Part shown: one piece after another, positions 10,221 to 18,904 of the stretch
Numbering within the stretch: position 1 is the stretch's first letter
Layout: each line of letters begins with the position of its first letter
Source: Planctomycetaceae bacterium UBA4732
GTDB taxonomy: Bacteria; Planctomycetota; Planctomycetia; Gemmatales; Gemmataceae
Direction of reading: 5' to 3'
NCBI GenBank assembly: GCA_002404095.1
Contig: DHJA01000218.1
Span: 371 to 22,203, forward strand
Length of the DNA: 21,833 nucleotides
Notes under the pieces: model-generated
What the model saw: only the letters and a program-made list of their open reading frames with translations
Told to the model about the DNA's origin: nothing
Databases searched by the model: none
Translations under genes and position numbers: made by a program

Positions 10221-10266
10221 ATACCTTATGCTCTCTTCAATGTTCCTTTTTCAAGGAGTTCGTGTC

Positions 10267-11295
10267 ATGGTTCGTAGACGTTCCGCGTTCACGCTCATCG
10301 AGCTGCTGGTGGTGATTGCCATCATCGCAATCCTTATCGGCCTGCTGCTGCCCGCCGTCCAGAAGGTGCGCGAGGCCGCCGCCCGCATCTCCTGCACCAA
10401 CAACCTCAAACAGATCGGCCTCGCCCTGCACAGCTACCACGACGCCAACGGGGCTTTGCCTACCGGAAAAGGCCCCTCCTACCCGGGTGCCCCGGTCTAC
10501 GCACGCTGGTCGGCCCAAGCCCAAATCCTGCCCTACCTTGAGCAGGGAAATCTCTATAAGAGCATCGATTTCGCTTTCCCACCGGCTACCCCCGGCATGG
10601 GCGGCGTCGTCAATTTCATGCCCGCGTATGACAACGCCGTCAATCACGACGCCTGCCGCGCGGTCGTCAAGACCTTCCTTTGCCCCTCCGACCCAGCGCC
10701 CCCGACGCCGGACTGGGCGGGCAATAACAACTACCTCGGCAGCGAGGGGACCATGTGGCTGTGCGACCTGAGCGAGCAACAGCCCAGCACCATGGCCCCG
10801 GGCGAGCCGGTCAATGGAATCTTCTATTACAAGAGCCACGTCAAGTTTGCCGACGTCACGGACGGCCTGAGCAACACCGCGTTCTTCAGCGAGAAGAACC
10901 GCGGCAGCGGCGTTCCCAACCCGCGCAGCGACCAGTTCATGATGATGAACACGACCTCCCTCGACAACACGTACCAAACCTGTTCCGGACTGAACCCGAG
11001 TACGGCCACGCCCCTGACGAGTTGGCAGGGGAAGAGTTGGGTGATGGGGGAAATGTGCTGCACGACCTACAACCACGTGGCGCCGCCAAACACCTCCACC
11101 TGCGCCGGCATGGGCTTCCCGGGGAACATGTCGAACATGGCCATGCAAGTTCCACCTTCGAGTTACCACATGGGCGGCGTCAACGTCCTCATGGGGGACG
11201 GGGGCGTGCGCTTTGTCATCAACGGCATCTCCCTGCCGAGTTGGCGGGCCATGGGCACGCGCAACGGCGGCGACGTGCCCGGCAACGACTTCTGA
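10267..11295 (+). CDS. DUF1559 domain protein with prepilin-type N-terminus
   Basis: The start is ATG 10267, because AAGGAG lies 8 bases before it; the frame is open from 10228 but without signal. The 342-residue product begins [20 protein letters not shown], a type IV pilin-like N-terminus cleaved before Phe with the conserved Glu at +5, followed by a transmembrane helix and [15 protein letters not shown], the hallmark of the DUF1559 family. The C-terminus has the H-X9-DG motif ([12 protein letters not shown]) and ends in the typical Trp-Arg-Ala-x-Gly-Thr block. This family is greatly expanded in planctomycetes and is thought to form pseudopilin-like or surface structures. It heads a run of same-strand genes; the next start is 12 bases away. 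Confidence 0.95.
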
Positions 11296-11307
11296 AAGGA
11301 GCCAGGA

Positions 11308-11715
11308 ATGTACCCCGTTTCTATGACGGCCCGCGCCCGGACAATTGGCGGCTGGCTATTGCTCGCGCTCTTGCCCGGCTGCGGCCTGAGCCAAAAAGAC
11401 TACATCCCGACGAAGGACAAGGCTCGCAAGAGCTTGGAAACAGCCTTAACGGCCTGGCAAGGCGGTCAGTCCCCCGGCAAGATCGGCAGCGCGTCGCCAA
11501 CCGTCCAAGTGGTGGACTCTGGCTGGAAGGCCGGTCAGAAGCTGTCCGAGTTTACGATCCTCGACGAGGAACCTGGCGACGGCCCGCGGTGGTTCTCGGT
11601 TCGGCTGCGCCTGGAGAATCCGAAAAGCGAGTTGGTTGTCCGCTACGTCGTTCTCGGCCGAGATCCCATCTGGGTCTACCGCGAAGAGGACTACAAGCGG
11701 GCCACGGGTATGTAG
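11308..11715 (+). CDS. Lipoprotein of unknown function downstream of DUF1559
   Basis: A 135-residue protein with a lipoprotein signal peptide: hydrophobic GGWLLLALLPGCG with the lipobox cysteine at about residue 26. The mature domain is small, probably alpha plus a beta-sheet (WFSVRLRLENPKSELVVRYVVLGRDPIWVYRE), with no catalytic motif I can see. It starts 12 bases after the DUF1559 stop behind AGGAG, so it is almost certainly cotranscribed. Small lipoproteins of this kind accompany DUF1559 genes in planctomycetes (from memory), which suggests they work on the same envelope structure. The exact role is unknown. Confidence 0.85.
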   Translation: MYPVSMTARARTIGGWLLLALLPGCGLSQKDYIPTKDKARKSLETALTAWQGGQSPGKIGSASPTVQVVDSGWKAGQKLSEFTILDEEPGDGPRWFSVRLRLENPKSELVVRYVVLGRDPIWVYREEDYKRATGM

Positions 11716-11795: not shown

Positions 11796-11969
11796 ATGCT
11801 CCGCCGACGCACCGCGTTCGCGCTTATCGAGCCGGTGGTTGTGATGATGGTCGTCGCCATCCTGAGCGGCCTGCTATTGTTCGCGGTCCTGAAAGTCCGC
11901 AACACCGCCGCTCGTGTACAATGCACCAATAATTTATCCCAGTCCTTCAATACGAGGCCGCGTCCATGA
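11796..11969 (+). pseudogene. 57-aa DUF1559 N-terminal remnant, still open and coupled to the cytochrome gene
   Basis: ATG 11796 follows CAGGAGG. The frame reads [20 protein letters not shown] and onward to CTNNLSQSF, then stops. By hand alignment, 32 of its first 49 residues equal those of the DUF1559 protein at 10267, including the cleavage-site A-F, Glu+5, the transmembrane segment and CTNNL. Everything after that (normally about 290 residues) is absent. The TGA stop overlaps the ATG of the cytochrome gene as ATGA. It is either a decayed paralogue whose good ribosome-binding site now feeds the next gene by translational coupling, or a mini-pseudopilin. Pro at position 13 and Phe at position 29 depart from the paralogue and hint at relaxed selection. 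Confidence 0.7.
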
Positions 11970-14900
11970 ACAATCCCACCGTGCAATCGCCGCCGTTGCG
12001 TCCGCACTTGCGCGACGCCCGCGGCCGAGCCTATACCCCGGCGTTGGGGCCTGCGTTAAAAGCGCTCCTAATTGTCCTGTTTATCCTTACGGCCCTCTTA
12101 AGCGTCACCGGCGTCTATCTCGGCGCCATCCGCTTCGTTGAATGGCAGGCGGCCAAGACCTACACGAACCAGTTCACTCTCTGGATGGTCCTCGCCCACA
12201 TTGTCGGCGGCCTCGTTTTCGTCGCCCCGTTCCTCATCTTCGGCTTCACCCATTGGGCCACCGCCTGGAAACGCAAGAACCGTCTCGCCGTCCGCCTGGG
12301 AATCACCCTGTTCATCGTCGGAAATCTCGTCGTCGTGAGCGGCTTGGCGCTGATCCAGCTGTCCGGCTGGCTGCAACTGCCGACGGGCAGCATCGGCCGC
12401 ATCCTCGTTTACATTCTGCACCTGGCGACGCCGGTTTTCGCCGCGATCCTTTACATAATGCACCGCCGGGCCGGCCCCGACATTAAATGGAGTTGGGGCG
12501 GCGGCTTTGGCGTCGTCGTCGTCGTTTTCGTCGCCGCCATGATCGTCATGCACATGCAGGACCCCCGCCAGTGGTACGCGCAAGGCTCCAAGGACGGCGA
12601 GAAGTATTTCGAGCCGTCCAAGACGCGCACCACGGACGCCAAGTTCATCCCGGCCAAGGCGCTGATGATGGATGCGTATTGTCTCAAATGTCATAAAGAC
12701 ATCTACAATGACCATATTCACTCTGCCCACAAGTTTAGCTCCTTCAGCAATCCCACATACCTCTTTAGCGTCCAAGAGACGCGCGAGGCCGGCCGGAAGC
12801 GCGACGGCAATGTCCAGGGGTCGCGCTGGTGTGCCGGTTGTCACGACCAAGTTCCGTTTTTGAGCGGCAGTTTTGAGGATCCCCGCCAAGACCCACACTA
12901 CGACGCCGGGCGCGACCAAGACCGTGTACAGCAGTATGAAGAAGTGGAAAACGTGCTGAATAAGCGGATGGATGCGCGGAATTCGGCTATCTCCAGCGCC
13001 GGCATTAGCTGCACCGTCTGTCACGCCATGACCAACGTCAACAGCACGACCGGCAACGGCGATTACACCATTGAGGAGCCGACGCACTATCCGTTCGCCT
13101 ATAGCGATAATTCGGTGTTGCAATGGGTAAATAATCAACTGGTCAAGGCCAAGCCGGAGTTCCACAAACAGACTTTCCTCAAGCCGTTCCATAAGACGGC
13201 CGAGTTCTGCTCAACGTGCCATAAGGTGAATCTGCCGGTCGAATTGAACCACTATAAAGAGTTCCTAAGAGGTCAAAACCATTACGACACTTACTTACTC
13301 AGCGGCGTGTCGGGCCATGGGGCGCGCAGCTTTTACTACCCGCCGGAAGCCAAAACCAATTGCGCCCAGTGCCACATGCCGCTTCAGCCCAGCGCCGATT
13401 TCGGCAGCAAGGACTTCGACGGCAGCGGCGTCCGCAAGGGTCACGGCCATTGGTTTCCGGGCGGCAACACCGGCCTGCCGTCGCTGCTGAGTCTCGACCC
13501 CAACCACCCGGACGACGCCGAGGCGTTTCGACGACAGTCGCAGCGCCAGGCCGACTTTCTGCGCGGCGTCGACCCGGAGGGCAAGGATAAGAAGCTGCGC
13601 ATCGACATCTTCGGCCTTAAGCCGGGCGGGACGGTCAACGGCGAGCTGATCGCCCCATTGCGGCCGAAGCTGCCGCCGTTGAAACCGAACTCGACCTACC
13701 TGATTGAAGTCGTGGTCCGTACGCTCGCGCTGGGCCATCCGTTCACGCAAGGCACCGTCGATTCCAACGAAGTTTGGGTCGATTTCACGGCGTCATCGGG
13801 CGGCAAGGTCATCGGCCGCAACGGCGGCCTCAAGGATGGCAACGACGCGGGCGAACTGGACCCGTGGGCGCATCGCCTGAACGTCCTGATGCTGGACCGC
13901 GACGGCAATCGCATTAACCGCCGCAATCCGCAGGACATTTTCACGCCGCTGTACAACCATCAGATTCCGCCAGGCGCCGGCCAAGTGATTCATTATCAGC
14001 TGACGACGCCGGCCGATCTAACGGCGCCGGTCGAGCTGAGCGTGAAGCTGCGTTATCGCAAATTCGACTTTGAGTATCTTAGTTTGGTCTATGGAGGCGC
14101 CGACAAGGTTCCCAAGACGCCGGTCGTGGACTTGTGCGAGGACAAGGTGGTCTTGCCGGTGGAAGGCGGGCTGGCGGCGCCTGAGCAAACGTCGCCGATC
14201 AAACCGGCCTGGCAGCGCTGGAACGACTATGGCATCGGCTGCGCCATTGAAGGCGGCATCGGCTTGAAAAAAGGCGAGTTTCGCCAGGCGGAAGAGGCGT
14301 ATAAGCACTTGCTGCCGCTCGATCCCGCCGAGGCCAAGGGCGCGCGCTGGAATGGCCACGTCAACCTGGCGCGCATCTACATCGACGAGGGCCGTTGGGA
14401 TGAGGCGGTCGCGGCCCTAAAGGCGGCCAAGACGGACGATCCGCCGGCGCCGTGGTGGCTGCTGGCCTATCACAATGGTCTGGTGAACCTCCAAAATTTC
14501 CGCAGTAAGGAGGGCTTCGACGCGGCCATCGCCGACTTCGAGCAGATCCTGGACCCGAACAATCAGCCGCGCGAACGCGGCTTCGACTTCACCAAGGATT
14601 ACGTCGTCATCGACCTCCTGGGCGGCGCCTTGTTCCAACGCGCCCAGGTGGAGACCGACCCCGCGGCGCTCGATGCGTTCCTACTGCGGGCCGTCGGGCA
14701 GTACGAAAAGACGCTGTTGCTTGACTCCGAAGACCTGGACGCTCACTACGGCCTCAGTCAGTGCTTCGACCAGCTCGGTCATTCTTCGCCGCCAGGGGAC
14801 TTTGACCTCGGCGATAGTAAAACCGACGAAGCGACTCTGCAATCTCTCGTCAATCTCTTGACGGACGGCGCCGCGGAGAAGAAGGCGCGATTGGAGGCGG

Positions 14901-15235
14901 CGGCCCGTCTGGAGGAAGCCGTCATCGCGCTCGGCCAGCAGCCGGCCGATGCAAAAGCGCCTAAACGGATGCGTTATGAGGCTCTTGTGAAACAGATCGA
15001 GCCGTTTTTCCATCAAAAGGGCGATGCGGAAACGAACGCGGCCGCGTCGCGGGCGCTGTACGTCCTGCACCGCGAACTGCACGCGATCTTCAAGCCCGAC
15101 GACCTGGCCGCTTCTCAGACCGCGAAGGTGTACCGCGAGAAGCATCCCGCCGCCGACAAGGCCGCCAACGCCGTCGTCATTTACGAACTCAATCGCGCGG
15201 GCGCTCCCGGCCTGCCGGAAGGAGGCAACCGATGA
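11966..15235 (+). CDS. Membrane-anchored pentaheme c-type cytochrome with TPR domain
   Basis: A 1089-residue protein. About five transmembrane helices (32-57, 72-95, 108-132, 146-166, 178-196) put the rest in the periplasm. Four histidines in the membrane part (78, 96, 152, 166) could ligate b-hemes. Five CXXCH sites follow: CLKCH 239, CAGCH 289, CTVCH 349, CSTCH 415 and CAQCH 466, in a cytochrome c-554-like fold with extra histidines as distal ligands. A beta-sandwich region (about 545-700) precedes TPR-like helical repeats (about 755-1000). It probably passes electrons between the quinone pool and a periplasmic partner; the direction is unknown. Start and stop both form ATGA overlaps, so it is translated with its neighbours. 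The next gene, an FG-GAP/ASPIC protein, is the likely partner. Confidence 0.9.
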
Positions 15236-17199
15236 ACGTGGGAAATCAGGGGATCACGGGCGACGAAGGCGAGCGCGTCACGTCCGGCGGATCGCTGCTG
15301 TCGTGGCTGGGCGCCGGCTTGGCGGTCTTGGCCGTGGCGGCGCTCGTCATCGCCGGCGTCTGCCTGTGGTACTTTCAGAAACCGCCGACGGTTGGCCCCG
15401 GCCCGAAGGTCGAGCCGGGAACACTCCTTGAGACGAAGGCTGTACCCGTACCGAAGGTACGCTTCACCGACGTTACGCAACAAGCCGGCATCCACTTTAC
15501 CCACACCAACGGCGCCTTCGGCAAGCGCTTGCTGCCGGAGACGATGGGGGCCGGCGCCGCGTTTGTCGACTACGACAATGACGGTAAACCCGATCTGCTA
15601 TTTGTCAATTCCTGTTACTGGCCCGGTCACGAAGAGAAAGGGCCGGCGCCGACGTTGGCTCTCTACCACAACCTCGGCGACGGCAAGTTTGAAGACGTGA
15701 CGGAAGCCGCGGGACTCGCCCTGACGATGTACGGCATGGGCGCAACAATCGGCGACTACGACAACGACGGCTGGCCGGACATTTTCATCACCGGCGTCGG
15801 CGGCAATCGGCTGTTCCACAACGAACCGGCGCCCGGCGGCGGCCGTCGCTTCCGCGAAGTGACGGCGGATGCCGGCGTCGGCGGTCCTGGCGGTTGGCCG
15901 AAGCCGGGCGACGGAGATTTCCTATCGCGTAAAGAGCTTTTGCCGTTCTGCACGTCTGCGTCGTTCCTCGATTACGACGGCGACGGCTTGCTCGATCTGT
16001 TCGTGTGCAGCTATGTCACCTGGTCGCCCGACTACGACCTTCACGCCAACTTTAACGTGGCCGGCGAGGACCGCAGTTTCGGCCCGCCGACGGCTTTTGA
16101 GGGCGCCCAATGTTTCCTCTACCACAACCTCGGCGGCGGCAAGTTCGAGGACGTTTCGGCCAAGGCCGGCATTCAGGTGTTCGACAAGGAAGGCGTGGAC
16201 GCGGCCGACCGCAAGCGCTCCGTCGCCAAGTCGCTCGGCGTGATTGTGGCCGACGTGGACGGCGACGGTTATCCCGACGTGATCGTGTCGAACGACACGG
16301 TGCGCAATTTCTTCTTCCACAACGTCCCGGCGCCGGGCGGCGGCCGTATGTTCGAGGAGATCGGCTACAAGAGTGGCGTCGGCTATGCGGAAGGCCGGGC
16401 GCGGGGGGCGATGGGCGTCGATTGGGCCTGGGATTATCGGCCGGGTCTGCACGCGGCGGCGATCGGCAACTTCGCGGATGAACCGGATACGTTTTTGTGC
16501 TTGGACGACGCTAAACGGCTGCGCTTCTCCGACCACGCCTTGGCCGAGGGCGTCGGCGGGCCGAGCCGGTCGCTGCTCAAGTTCGGCCTATTGTTCTTCG
16601 ACTATGACAACGACGGCCGAGCCGACTTGCTCACGTGCAACGGTCACGTCGAACCGGACATCGAGAAAATCCGAAAAAGCCAGAAGTACAAGCAGCCTGC
16701 CCAGCTGTTCTGGAACACGGGCAAACAGCCAGGGGGCTTCGAGCCGGTGACGGCCGAGGCGGCCGGCCCGGACTTGTTCAAGGAGATGGTCGGTCGCGGC
16801 TGCGCGTTCGCCGACGTGGACGGCGACGGCGCTTTGGATTTGGTGCTGACCGGCAACGGCGAAGCGGCTCGGCTGTTGCACAACGGCGGCGGCACGGGCC
16901 ATCACTGGGTCCGCCTGAATCTGCGCGGCGACGGCGTTCATTCCAACCGCAGCGCCATCGGGGCGCGAATCGTGTTGGAAGCCGGAGCCGTTGTGCAGCA
17001 GCGCGAGATCGCCGCATCGCGCGGCTACCTCAGCGCGAGCGAGCTGGTCGTGACGTTCGGTCTCGGCGCTGCGACGAAGATCGACCGGGTGACAATCCGC
17101 TGGCCGGGCCGCGACGCCGGGGCGCCGCAGGTGCTGATGGATGTGGCGGTTGATAAGGTCAATACGGTCGATCAGGTATACCAGAAGTCGGCGCCGTAA
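15232..17199 (+). CDS. CRTAC1-like FG-GAP/VCBS repeat protein with ASPIC/UnbV domain
   Basis: A 655-residue protein with an N-terminal membrane anchor (about 24-44) and a periplasmic body. Six repeats carry calcium-loop motifs of the D-x-D-x-D-G type, for example FVDYDNDGKPDLLFVN, IGDYDNDGWPDIFITG, FLDYDGDGLLDLFVCS, VADVDGDGYPDVIVSN, FFDYDNDGRADLLTCN and FADVDGDGALDLVLTGN, indicating a seven-bladed beta-propeller. The C-terminus (about 570-645) is an ASPIC/UnbV domain (SAIGARIVLEAGA...RGYLSASE...VTIRWPG). No heme motif is present. ATG 15232 overlaps the cytochrome stop. Such propellers bind proteins or polysaccharides, and UnbV-type proteins have been tied to biosynthetic clusters, so it may be a docking or catalytic partner of the cytochrome. 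The function is unproven. Confidence 0.93.
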   Translation: MNVGNQGITGDEGERVTSGGSLLSWLGAGLAVLAVAALVIAGVCLWYFQKPPTVGPGPKVEPGTLLETKAVPVPKVRFTDVTQQAGIHFTHTNGAFGKRLLPETMGAGAAFVDYDNDGKPDLLFVNSCYWPGHEEKGPAPTLALYHNLGDGKFEDVTEAAGLALTMYGMGATIGDYDNDGWPDIFITGVGGNRLFHNEPAPGGGRRFREVTADAGVGGPGGWPKPGDGDFLSRKELLPFCTSASFLDYDGDGLLDLFVCSYVTWSPDYDLHANFNVAGEDRSFGPPTAFEGAQCFLYHNLGGGKFEDVSAKAGIQVFDKEGVDAADRKRSVAKSLGVIVADVDGDGYPDVIVSNDTVRNFFFHNVPAPGGGRMFEEIGYKSGVGYAEGRARGAMGVDWAWDYRPGLHAAAIGNFADEPDTFLCLDDAKRLRFSDHALAEGVGGPSRSLLKFGLLFFDYDNDGRADLLTCNGHVEPDIEKIRKSQKYKQPAQLFWNTGKQPGGFEPVTAEAAGPDLFKEMVGRGCAFADVDGDGALDLVLTGNGEAARLLHNGGGTGHHWVRLNLRGDGVHSNRSAIGARIVLEAGAVVQQREIAASRGYLSASELVVTFGLGAATKIDRVTIRWPGRDAGAPQVLMDVAVDKVNTVDQVYQKSAP

Positions 17200-17270: not shown

Positions 17271-17303
17271 TGGTTGTTAGAGCTTCTAATGAGGAGAACT
17301 ATA

Positions 17304-18452
17304 GTGGCACATGCAACCTTTCGCGCGGCCGGCTGGCTCGCGCTCCCGATCGTATTGGGCGGTTCCTTCGCGGCCGGCGCCGCTGAGCCGACGCCTCAAT
17401 GCCACGACTTCTTGGCGTCCGTTCGCCGCCTCGAATTCGTGGAAATGCTGACCGCCATTGTGAATGACGAAGAGATCGGCCCCGGCACCGGCTGGTTCCA
17501 TCCCGCCCAGAGCCGTTACAACTGGAAGTTGCTCGCCGAGCGCATGGACGCCGATCACGACGGCGCGATCACGCCGGAAGAGTTCACGGGGTCGCGTGAA
17601 CTCTTCGACCGCCTCGACCGCGACGGCGACGGCCGCCTTACCGCCGACGATTTCGACTGGTCCGAAAAATCGCCTTACTGGCGGCAGGCGGGAATGGCCA
17701 AGCAATTGCTCCGGCGCGCCGACGCCGACAGCGACGGCAAGGTGTCCGAAGAGGAATGGCTGGAAATGTTCCGGCAAGCCGTGAAGGACAAGGACAAACT
17801 GACGGCCGACGACCTGCGCGTCCTGCTCTTTCCGCCACAGCCGAAGGCGCCGCCCGGCCCGCCGCCGGGTATACCTTCGCAGACGACGCTCCTTCTCGGC
17901 CTGTTCCAAAGCGAAATCGGCTCACCGTCGGCCGGCCCCAAAGTCGGCGCGCCGGCCCCCGACTTCACTCTGCGCACGCCGGACGGTAAGAAAATCACCA
18001 TGCAAGTGTACCGCGCCGGCCGGCCGATGGTGCTGGTCTTCGGCAGTTTCACCTGAGGGCCGTATCGGTCCCAGTTTGGGGCCATCGAAGAGCTGAAAAG
18101 TCGCTACGGCGACCGCGCGGCGTTCCTTAACGTCTACGTCCGCGAGGCGCACCCGACCACCGGCTGGCGCATGGAGTCCAACGACAAGGAAGGCGTCTGT
18201 TTCGCTCAGCCGACCACCGACGAGGAGCGAAACACGATCGCACGTCAGTGTAAGACGACTCTCAAGATGACGGTTCCGCTGGTGGTGGACGGCATGGACG
18301 ACCGCGTCGGCCATCTTTATAGCGGAATGCCGGATCGGCTTTATGTGATTGGCCGCGACGGCCAAGTCGTCTACAAGAGCGGCCGCGGGCCGTTTGGCTT
18401 CCGGCCGGCGGAGATGGAGCAGGCTCTTATCTTGCACTTACTGGATAAATAA
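17304..18452 (+). CDS. EF-hand/iodothyronine deiodinase-like selenoprotein (TGA at 18054-18056 read as Sec)
   Basis: Read through one in-frame TGA, this is a 382-residue exported protein. It has a signal peptide (1-26), three canonical EF-hand loops (82-93, 105-116, 140-151), a Pro-rich linker (about 177-191) and a deiodinase-type thioredoxin fold (about 211-382). The active-site segment is RPMVLVFGSFT-Sec-GPYRSQF, matching the deiodinase GSxT-Sec-PPF. Sec is residue 251 and the catalytic-type EAH follows with His283, 32 residues on, as I recall for mammalian type 3 deiodinase. LYVIGRDGQVVYKSGRGPFG near the end also fits. The start is GTG 17304, behind GAGGAG at 7-base spacing; ATG 17289 overlaps that site. 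Gene callers would split it at 18056. A premature stop is the alternative, but the downstream frame is intact and conserved. It may reduce carbon-halogen bonds or act as a redoxin; the substrate is unknown. Confidence 0.9.
18054..18087 (+). promoter_or_regulatory. Sec UGA codon with candidate bacterial SECIS hairpin
   Basis: After the TGA (18054-18056), 18067-18072 pairs with 18078-18083 (six pairs including one G-U) around loop AGTTT (18073-18077). The stem extends through 18064-18065 with 18084-18085 and 18061-18062 with 18086-18087, with C18066 and T18063 bulged. The loop G is 17 bases after the UGA, within the range known for bacterial SECIS elements. It should recruit SelB and Sec-tRNA. 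Confidence 0.75.
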
Positions 18453-18904
18453 TGGGGAAGACGCGCAAAAATCGTCTCGATGATGTTTACCGCGCCACTA
18501 CGTATTTCGTGGACGCGCCGGCCGGGCGCTTGGCGTTTCGCGTCGGGCAAGCCAGCGCGGAAATCGACGCGTTGGCTACAGCGCACCAAGTCCGCACCTG
18601 GACCTACATCACCGCCTACAACCCCGGCTCGGTCGCGGCGCCCAGGGAGCGGAACGAGCAACGCCAGCAGGAGCTGAAACAGGCCGTAGCGGAGTCCGGT
18701 TATCCCTTTTACAGCGGCGAAGGCAAGGGAGACGGCGACTGGCCGGCGGAGCCGAGCTTGCTGGTGCTTGGCGTCAGTGAAATGGAGGCCGCGGCAATGG
18801 CGCGCCGGTTCGGCCAAGCCGCCGTCCTCTTCGGGGACCGGCACGGACCAGCACGTCTACTATGGACGGACGCTTATTCGGCGTCATCCATGCAGGGGGA
18901 TTAG
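18452..18904 (+). CDS. DUF3293 domain-containing protein
   Basis: A 150-residue cytoplasmic protein covering the whole DUF3293 family length. Recognisable blocks are VYRATTY (12-18), WTYITAYNPGS (50-60), the segment RNEQRQQEL, GDWPAEPSLLVLGV (95-108) and RRFGQAAVLFG (118-128). The family has no established function that I know of. Its ATG overlaps the TAA stop of the deiodinase-like gene by one base, so translation of this gene is probably coupled to read-through of the Sec codon. No Shine-Dalgarno of its own is evident. A compound palindrome begins 15 bases after the stop. Confidence 0.9.
   Translation: MGKTRKNRLDDVYRATTYFVDAPAGRLAFRVGQASAEIDALATAHQVRTWTYITAYNPGSVAAPRERNEQRQQELKQAVAESGYPFYSGEGKGDGDWPAEPSLLVLGVSEMEAAAMARRFGQAAVLFGDRHGPARLLWTDAYSASSMQGD

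Follow-up and report, generated by a model that had tools for sequence, protein, structure and literature searches.

Deiodinase-like proteins of bacteria have been in print since 2005, when Zhang et al. (PMC1088965, main text) described four such sequences with selenocysteine (Sec) from the Sargasso Sea metagenome and recognised both Sec and cysteine (Cys) forms. Deiodinase-like selenoproteins have been tabulated since then (article texts of PMC2398784, PMC9312934 and PMC13188914), and a 2021 survey of the Global Ocean Sampling (GOS) data reported, in its article text, that such a selenoprotein also occurs in marine samples as a fusion with an EF-hand domain (PMC9402790). Here we describe a gene of this kind at positions 17304..18452 (plus strand) of a 21,833-nucleotide stretch of DNA, called the window below, from Planctomycetaceae bacterium UBA4732 (contig DHJA01000218.1, positions 371 to 22,203). 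Its in-frame TGA at 18054..18056 is very probably read as Sec, which would give a selenoprotein some 382 residues long, in which three EF-hand loops are combined with a deiodinase-like domain predicted to act as a selenol redox enzyme. We favour this reading because relatives carry either TGA or a Cys codon at the site, because a hairpin is found behind the site in the TGA genes only, because the genome has Sec machinery, and because nearly all short database homologues end exactly where the TGA stands.

The window protein shares with the proteins of PMC1088965 (main text) the occurrence of the Pfam family PF00837 in bacteria, the Sec/Cys site, a selenocysteine insertion sequence (SECIS) and a likely redox role; a word search of the same main text finds neither EF-hand nor Planctomycetes. 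With the fusion in the article text of PMC9402790 it shares an EF-hand pair (PF13499) joined to a deiodinase-like domain in a selenoprotein; the passages on that fusion name no host and no partner genes, and describe neither a SECIS nor how Sec and Cys forms are distributed. Sec genes in some planctomycetes are reported in PMC4807772, where the word 'deiodinase' is absent from the main text. The window gene is thus a well-supported member of a family already in print, known since 2005 and as an EF-hand fusion since 2021. In their tables, reviews of 2022 and 2026 give a UxxC motif for the deiodinase-like protein, and a GOS table of 2008 gives no motif. The window protein was not filed under the UxxC form because it has Tyr at position +3 after the Sec, a position at which Cys occurs in one of 42 Sec genes (F in 31, Y in 9, C in 1 and R in 1).

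The frame from 17304 to 18452 contains a single TGA, directly after VLVFGSFT, and when this codon is translated as U a further 131 residues and a TAA follow. Both flanks look coding, with a third-position GC content of 0.81 on the 5' side of the TGA and 0.77 on the 3' side. The match to T4_deiodinase (PF00837) crosses the TGA, spanning residues 213-374 (17940..18425, plus strand; 96.5 bits, cut-off 27), and the TGA, the predicted Sec codon at residue 251, is the sole interruption of this thioredoxin-fold domain. The NCBIfam model NF038285, 'deiodinase family protein' (class hypoth_equivalog), which gives a name without a function, covers nearly the whole joined protein (residues 42-381, model positions 7-346 of 347; 464 bits, cut-off 250). 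An earlier note on this DNA had read two apparent open reading frames as one gene with Sec after FGSFT, and the translation bears out the single frame. EAHPTTGW, RLYVIGRDG and GRGPFG, which it quoted from beyond the TGA, are all there letter for letter, and its count of 132 codons past the TGA is right if the stop is included.

To compare the site among relatives, 59 genomes, the window's own included, were searched with PF00837, and 31 contained matches. Every gene of this first set with a letter at the site had either TGA (23, window included) or Cys (19), 42 of 42 in all, and one further fragment had no letter there. The set was then enlarged with 79 loci (231 relatives had been found, and the best 80 were taken), almost all of them labelled planctomycete and at least one otherwise (L152, Byssovorax); with exact copies removed and near copies kept, it came to 109 genes. 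Across these, window included, the site was TGA in 42 and TGC or TGT in 67, and no other codon occurred. Column 251 is therefore Sec or Cys in all 109 aligned genes, and the placing of the TGA at precisely the Sec position, which the earlier note had thought beyond chance, recurs in 42 of them.

The column three residues before the site (U-3, residue 248) also differs between the two forms: 40 of the 42 Sec genes have Ser there, whereas 59 of the 67 Cys genes have Asn (Fisher p 6e-23 over 105 of the 109 genes, four with Cys at U-3 being left out; kinship uncorrected). On a tree of 106 genes (three of the 109, fragments at the site's locus, were left out), the best topology has at least nine Sec/Cys changes, two of them forced by well-supported branches. 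The tree offers two well-supported independent pairs for the Ser/Asn link, too few for significance, and the difference at U-3 may be one old clade difference. A second, divergent type of Sec gene, with the sequence TFGCLTUPPFLW and about 467 amino acids, was seen at L069:8395-9795 and in L156 near 4808; its deiodinase-like part scores 26.5 bits, just below the PF00837 cut-off of 27, and the L069 protein has a C-terminal EF-hand.

Downstream of the TGA, a bacterial SECIS hairpin is predicted at 18067..18083 (plus strand) from the minimum-energy fold and from covariation in the Sec genes, with the stem GGUCCCA/UGGGGCC, the loop GUU at 18074-18076 and 17 bases from UGA to loop. This agrees with the features of bacterial SECIS elements named in the main text of PMC1088965, a small apical loop with a G. 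In the 23 Sec genes of the first set, the 48 bases from the TGA onward align without gaps. At stem columns 14-20/24-30, which enclose the 3-base loop, 87.6% of cells are paired, 29 are changed on both sides and the covariation score is 0.488; pairing, double changes and covariation were each matched by none of 500 shuffles. Shifting the partner by one column in either direction lowered pairing to 52.8%. The same columns in the 19 Cys genes were 33.8% paired, with no excess over shuffles, and RNAalifold recovered the hairpin from the Sec set but predicted no structure for the Cys set.

The stem also held in genes that had not been used to define it, with at least 6 of 7 pairs in 17 of 19 held-out Sec genes; the two that failed are the divergent L069 and L156, with 4 of 7 pairs at the usual place. 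Overall, at least 6 of 7 pairs form in 34 of 42 Sec genes and in none of 67 Cys genes. When the 42 Sec genes were recoded synonymously, the 268 pairs observed compared with a mean of 161.6 (standard deviation 6.5) and a highest value of 183 in 2000 recodings. The loop G is invariant at alignment column 21 of the 23-gene set and present in 40 of 42 Sec genes overall, and the codon to which it belongs reads CAG (Gln) in 37 of the 42 Sec genes compared with 15 of 67 Cys genes, so that the needs of the RNA seem to override those of the protein here. An Rfam scan at gathering thresholds gave no match in the window.

These comparisons bear on whether the TGA could be a recent nonsense mutation or a sequencing error in a Cys-type gene, which would leave the gene broken. 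TGA is one base away from TGC and TGT, and a deiodinase-like copy in a relative (L084; G040:C37) carries TGA at the usual site together with an extra TAG and looks decayed. The same TGA, however, is shared by 42 of 109 genes and is present in 16 of the 59 genomes searched, both of its flanks remain coding, and the covarying hairpin is confined to TGA genes. We therefore consider a chance lesion highly improbable.

A gene for a selenoprotein would need a decoding apparatus, and the earlier note had pointed to selA, selB, selC and selD as the genes to look for. In the window's genome (assembly of 6.8 Mb in 299 contigs, 90% complete), selB (639 amino acids, 385 bits) and selA (472 amino acids, 570 bits) are adjacent, and a tRNA-Sec (74 bits, anticodon tca, UCA) lies on another contig. 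These were found together with a gene that scores as selD, a 786-residue oxidoreductase-SelD fusion (selD model 277.4 bits, cut-off 125), which is the sole selD match over the cut-off and has no TGA (G000:C69; L092:3120-5480, minus strand). Among relatives, 20 selD matches with an in-frame TGA were observed. All 16 genomes with the TGA form have selB over its cut-off, compared with 9 of 15 Cys-only genomes (Fisher p 0.007, kinship uncorrected); selA passes in 14 of these 16, the exceptions being G044, in which the gene is split over two contigs, and G017, and tRNA-Sec reaches at least 60 bits in 14 as well. The SelB/tRNA-Sec machinery of the genome would then decode the UGA as Sec, aided by the hairpin at bases 14-30 from the UGA. 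Nothing beyond one in-frame TGA favours a reassignment of UGA to an amino acid throughout the genome; TGA is the stop of 6 of the 14 window genes checked, and the genome has a dedicated tRNA-Sec with selA and selB, so that we give this idea next to no credence.

Several observations weigh against the Sec reading. On the side of the hairpin, the remaining two of the five pair measures were weaker, being matched by 62 and 7 of 500 shuffles, and 8 of 42 Sec genes fall below 6 pairs at the stem columns, some of them folding a bulged stem. The window hairpin taken alone is no more stable than its shuffled versions (z between -1.1 and +0.3 at four lengths), and for this reason the case for a SECIS rests on the comparison of genes. 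On the side of the machinery, the selD fusion also matches the 'fusion_not_SelD' model (388.8, below that model's cut-off of 700), and two draft genomes with the TGA form gave poor results: G017 gave no selA match and a best tRNA-Sec of 44.4 bits, and G003 gave a tRNA-Sec match of 51.7 bits only.

Database homologues were collected in a search of 5.8 billion proteins, which returned 1555 at E 0.001 or better; the best 120 of the 1555 were analysed and made 121 with the query. Twenty-one of these 121 have fewer than 300 residues, and 20 of the 21 end exactly at FGSFT; the remaining short protein (P0038) enters a different C-terminus. Short proteins account for 15 of the 18 best matches (P0005-P0019), the three above them (P0002-P0004) being full-length with Cys, and 'EF hand' and 'Ca2+-binding EF-hand superfamily protein' are among the names that they carry in several cases, as the earlier note had predicted of the usual annotation. 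Among the longer proteins, 98 of 100 have the searched motif and Cys (including the query, which was entered with Cys), and two fall outside the pattern. Full-length homologues thus run through the site as one domain, and a recurring annotation error, in which genes are cut at the active-site codon, is documented.

The short proteins raise the question of whether the UGA is mainly a stop, with the 250-residue EF-hand product as the real protein and Sec read-through minor or regulated by selenium. Termination is a general competitor of UGA decoding (as the abstract of PMC9599142 also states), and the short product would retain the EF-hand part. In a 22-row alignment, however, 34 of the 59 invariant columns, active-site residues among them, fall after the site, a part that makes up 131 of 382 residues, and the 21 other rows, all with Cys, run through the site. 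Termination as the main outcome therefore appears improbable. Taken together, strong comparative evidence supports the earlier note's interpretation of the TGA as a Sec codon.

The product of such decoding would be one likely exported selenoprotein with EF-hand loops, for which Sec insertion, export, calcium binding and chemistry are all inferred. The whole open frame, from GTG to TAA, encodes 382 residues with the TGA counted as one. Our guess for the start is GTG 17304, in favour of which there is a putative ribosome-binding site, AGGAG, at 17292..17296 (plus strand), 7 bases 5' of it; a TTG at 17274 is open too. The N-terminus (17304..17384, plus strand) resembles a signal peptide, with a hydrophobic stretch (hydropathy maximum 1.77, residues 12-26) followed by ...AGAA/EP, and the protein is likely exported. 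Three loops with the canonical EF-hand pattern lie in the same chain: DADHDGAITPEE (residues 82-93, 17547..17582), DRDGDGRLTADD (residues 105-116, 17616..17651) and DADSDGKVSEEE (residues 140-151, 17721..17756), all on the plus strand, the second and third also being matched by Pfam (EF-hand pair PF13499, residues 98-157; 43.4 bits, cut-off 30). These loops suggest calcium binding.

The closest solved folds to the predicted structure, which was built on 22 sequences and is mostly of low confidence over residues 1-39, are Dio2 and Dio3. By sequence, mouse Dio3 (4tr3) and Dio2 (9h48) match at E 3.7e-20 and 1.2e-16, and mouse deiodinases and the window protein have in common the fold, FGSxTU and EAHPxxGW, with the GRGP turn shared with Dio3. 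Dio3 residues whose roles are given in the part of PMC7506546 consulted recur in the window protein: Ser167, Thr169, Sec170, Tyr197 and Glu200 correspond to S248, T250, U251, Y278 and E281, and His202, Trp207, Arg225 and Arg275 to H283, W288, R309 and R361. Counting the other way, Dio3 His219, Tyr257, Glu259 and Arg176 are replaced by P303, M342, D344 and Q257. The position U-2 is Cys in Dio3 but Phe in the window protein, and the animal deiodinases are membrane proteins that were not matched by any EF-hand part of the window protein. Because P303 stands at the second histidine (Dio3 His219), we did not file the protein as an iodothyronine deiodinase. The term 'deiodinase-like' in the earlier note stands for fold and active-site resemblance, and the activity itself is a prediction.

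The most likely chemistry would be peroxiredoxin-like, with a selenolate that reduces its substrate, either a peroxide or an activated carbon-halogen compound; the oxidised selenium would afterwards be restored by a thiol partner, which in relatives is plausibly an AhpD-like CxxC/CxxU protein, fused or encoded beside the gene. In fold comparison the peroxiredoxins AhpE and Bcp score below the deiodinases, and the Pfam score of the window protein in this group is marginal (AhpC-TSA 27.7, cut-off 26; Redoxin 20.6, cut-off 26.6). A true reductive dehalogenase for iodo- or bromo-aromatics, working by animal deiodinase chemistry rather than as a thiol peroxidase-like enzyme, seems unlikely to us, though a good deal less so than the rivals to Sec decoding. 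The hormone-pocket residues His219 and Tyr257 are the ones replaced in the window protein, a halogen link was found for none of the neighbours annotated (many neighbours lie outside the annotation), and in relatives the neighbourhood repeatedly contains AhpD-like proteins, whose family is related to peroxidases.

AhpD reduces AhpC, which gives a precedent for a partner role, and the fusion of two genes is a classical sign that their products work together. We searched for the AhpD-like motif C-x-x-C/U-[M/L]-G-H in the stored stretches of 100 loci, window included, and found it in 41 (the window without), in 38 of the 41 on the same strand within 3 kb. At least one CxxU motif was present in all 9 motif-bearing loci with a Sec-type gene (two of which also have CxxC), compared with 4 of 32 with Cys-type genes only (Fisher p 2e-6, kinship uncorrected). 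In 15 of 109 genes the motif is in frame with the deiodinase-like part, a second TGA being read through only where the motif fits; 4 of these fused genes are Sec-type with CxxU, 3 are Cys-type with CxxU and 8 are Cys-type with CxxC. L059, L102, L103 and L112 have two in-frame TGAs in one chain, at the deiodinase-like site and in CxxU, 442-500 codons apart. The fused AhpD-like part matches CMD (20.1, cut-off 23) and alkylhydroperoxidase-related models, all under their cut-offs. CTCGCGGTCGCGGG follows 13 of 13 M-type CxxU motifs compared with 0 of 34 CxxC motifs, and it is placed after CxxU as a second SECIS would be, which makes it a candidate for one. CxxU neighbours or fusions at L080, L100, L106, L119, L122, L150, L162, L081 and others are further genes that annotation would split at the TGA.

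Fusion and pairing of a deiodinase-like domain with an AhpD-like CxxC/CxxU protein suggest a redox relay. Against extending this to the window protein, no AhpD-like gene was found at E 0.001 in the window's own genome (at the completeness given above), and of the 38 Sec-type loci 29 are without the motif. Literature searches and passages of PMC1088965, PMC13188914, PMC9312934, PMC2398784 and PMC9402790 brought up neither a deiodinase-like/AhpD fusion nor another link between the two, and the same passages contain no Ser/Asn change at U-3. Our tentative proposal, which we hold to be possible rather than probable, is that planctomycetes have a dedicated selenium relay outside the cytoplasm, of which the domain is one half; an AhpD-like CxxU/CxxC protein would recharge it and would sometimes be joined with it in one chain with two selenocysteines. 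The EF-hands would tie this relay to calcium, the window protein would be its stand-alone form, and a change from Sec to Cys would retune the active site, with Ser going to Asn at U-3.

The genes around the window gene were also compared. Directly upstream lies a gene for an FG-GAP/ASPIC-UnbV protein (15232..17199, plus strand), preceded by a gene (11966..15235, plus strand) for a large protein that combines TPR repeats with five CxxCH motifs of the haem-binding type and matches a multihaem cytochrome model weakly (21.8 of 250 bits). Directly downstream, a gene for a DUF3293 protein (18452..18904, plus strand) overlaps the TAA by one base with its start. Of the 99 other loci, 5 have a relative of the TPR/CxxCH protein close to their deiodinase-like gene, which is Cys-type in each (L075, L147, L166, L061 and L171), three of which also have an ASPIC/UnbV protein; given this distribution, the idea that the cytochrome and the ASPIC protein feed the deiodinase-like protein was set aside. 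Genes for a DUF1559 prepilin-like protein and a small lipoprotein-like protein (window 10228-11715) recur near deiodinase-like genes, in 34 and 25 of 90 loci, and are probably a common planctomycete cassette.

The family described here offers natural variants of a single enzyme type, 42 with Sec and 67 with Cys, together with a mapped SECIS element, and the AhpD-like protein is a concrete candidate partner for this bacterial branch of the deiodinase family. The role of deiodinase-type enzymes without thyroid hormone thereby becomes testable in bacteria.
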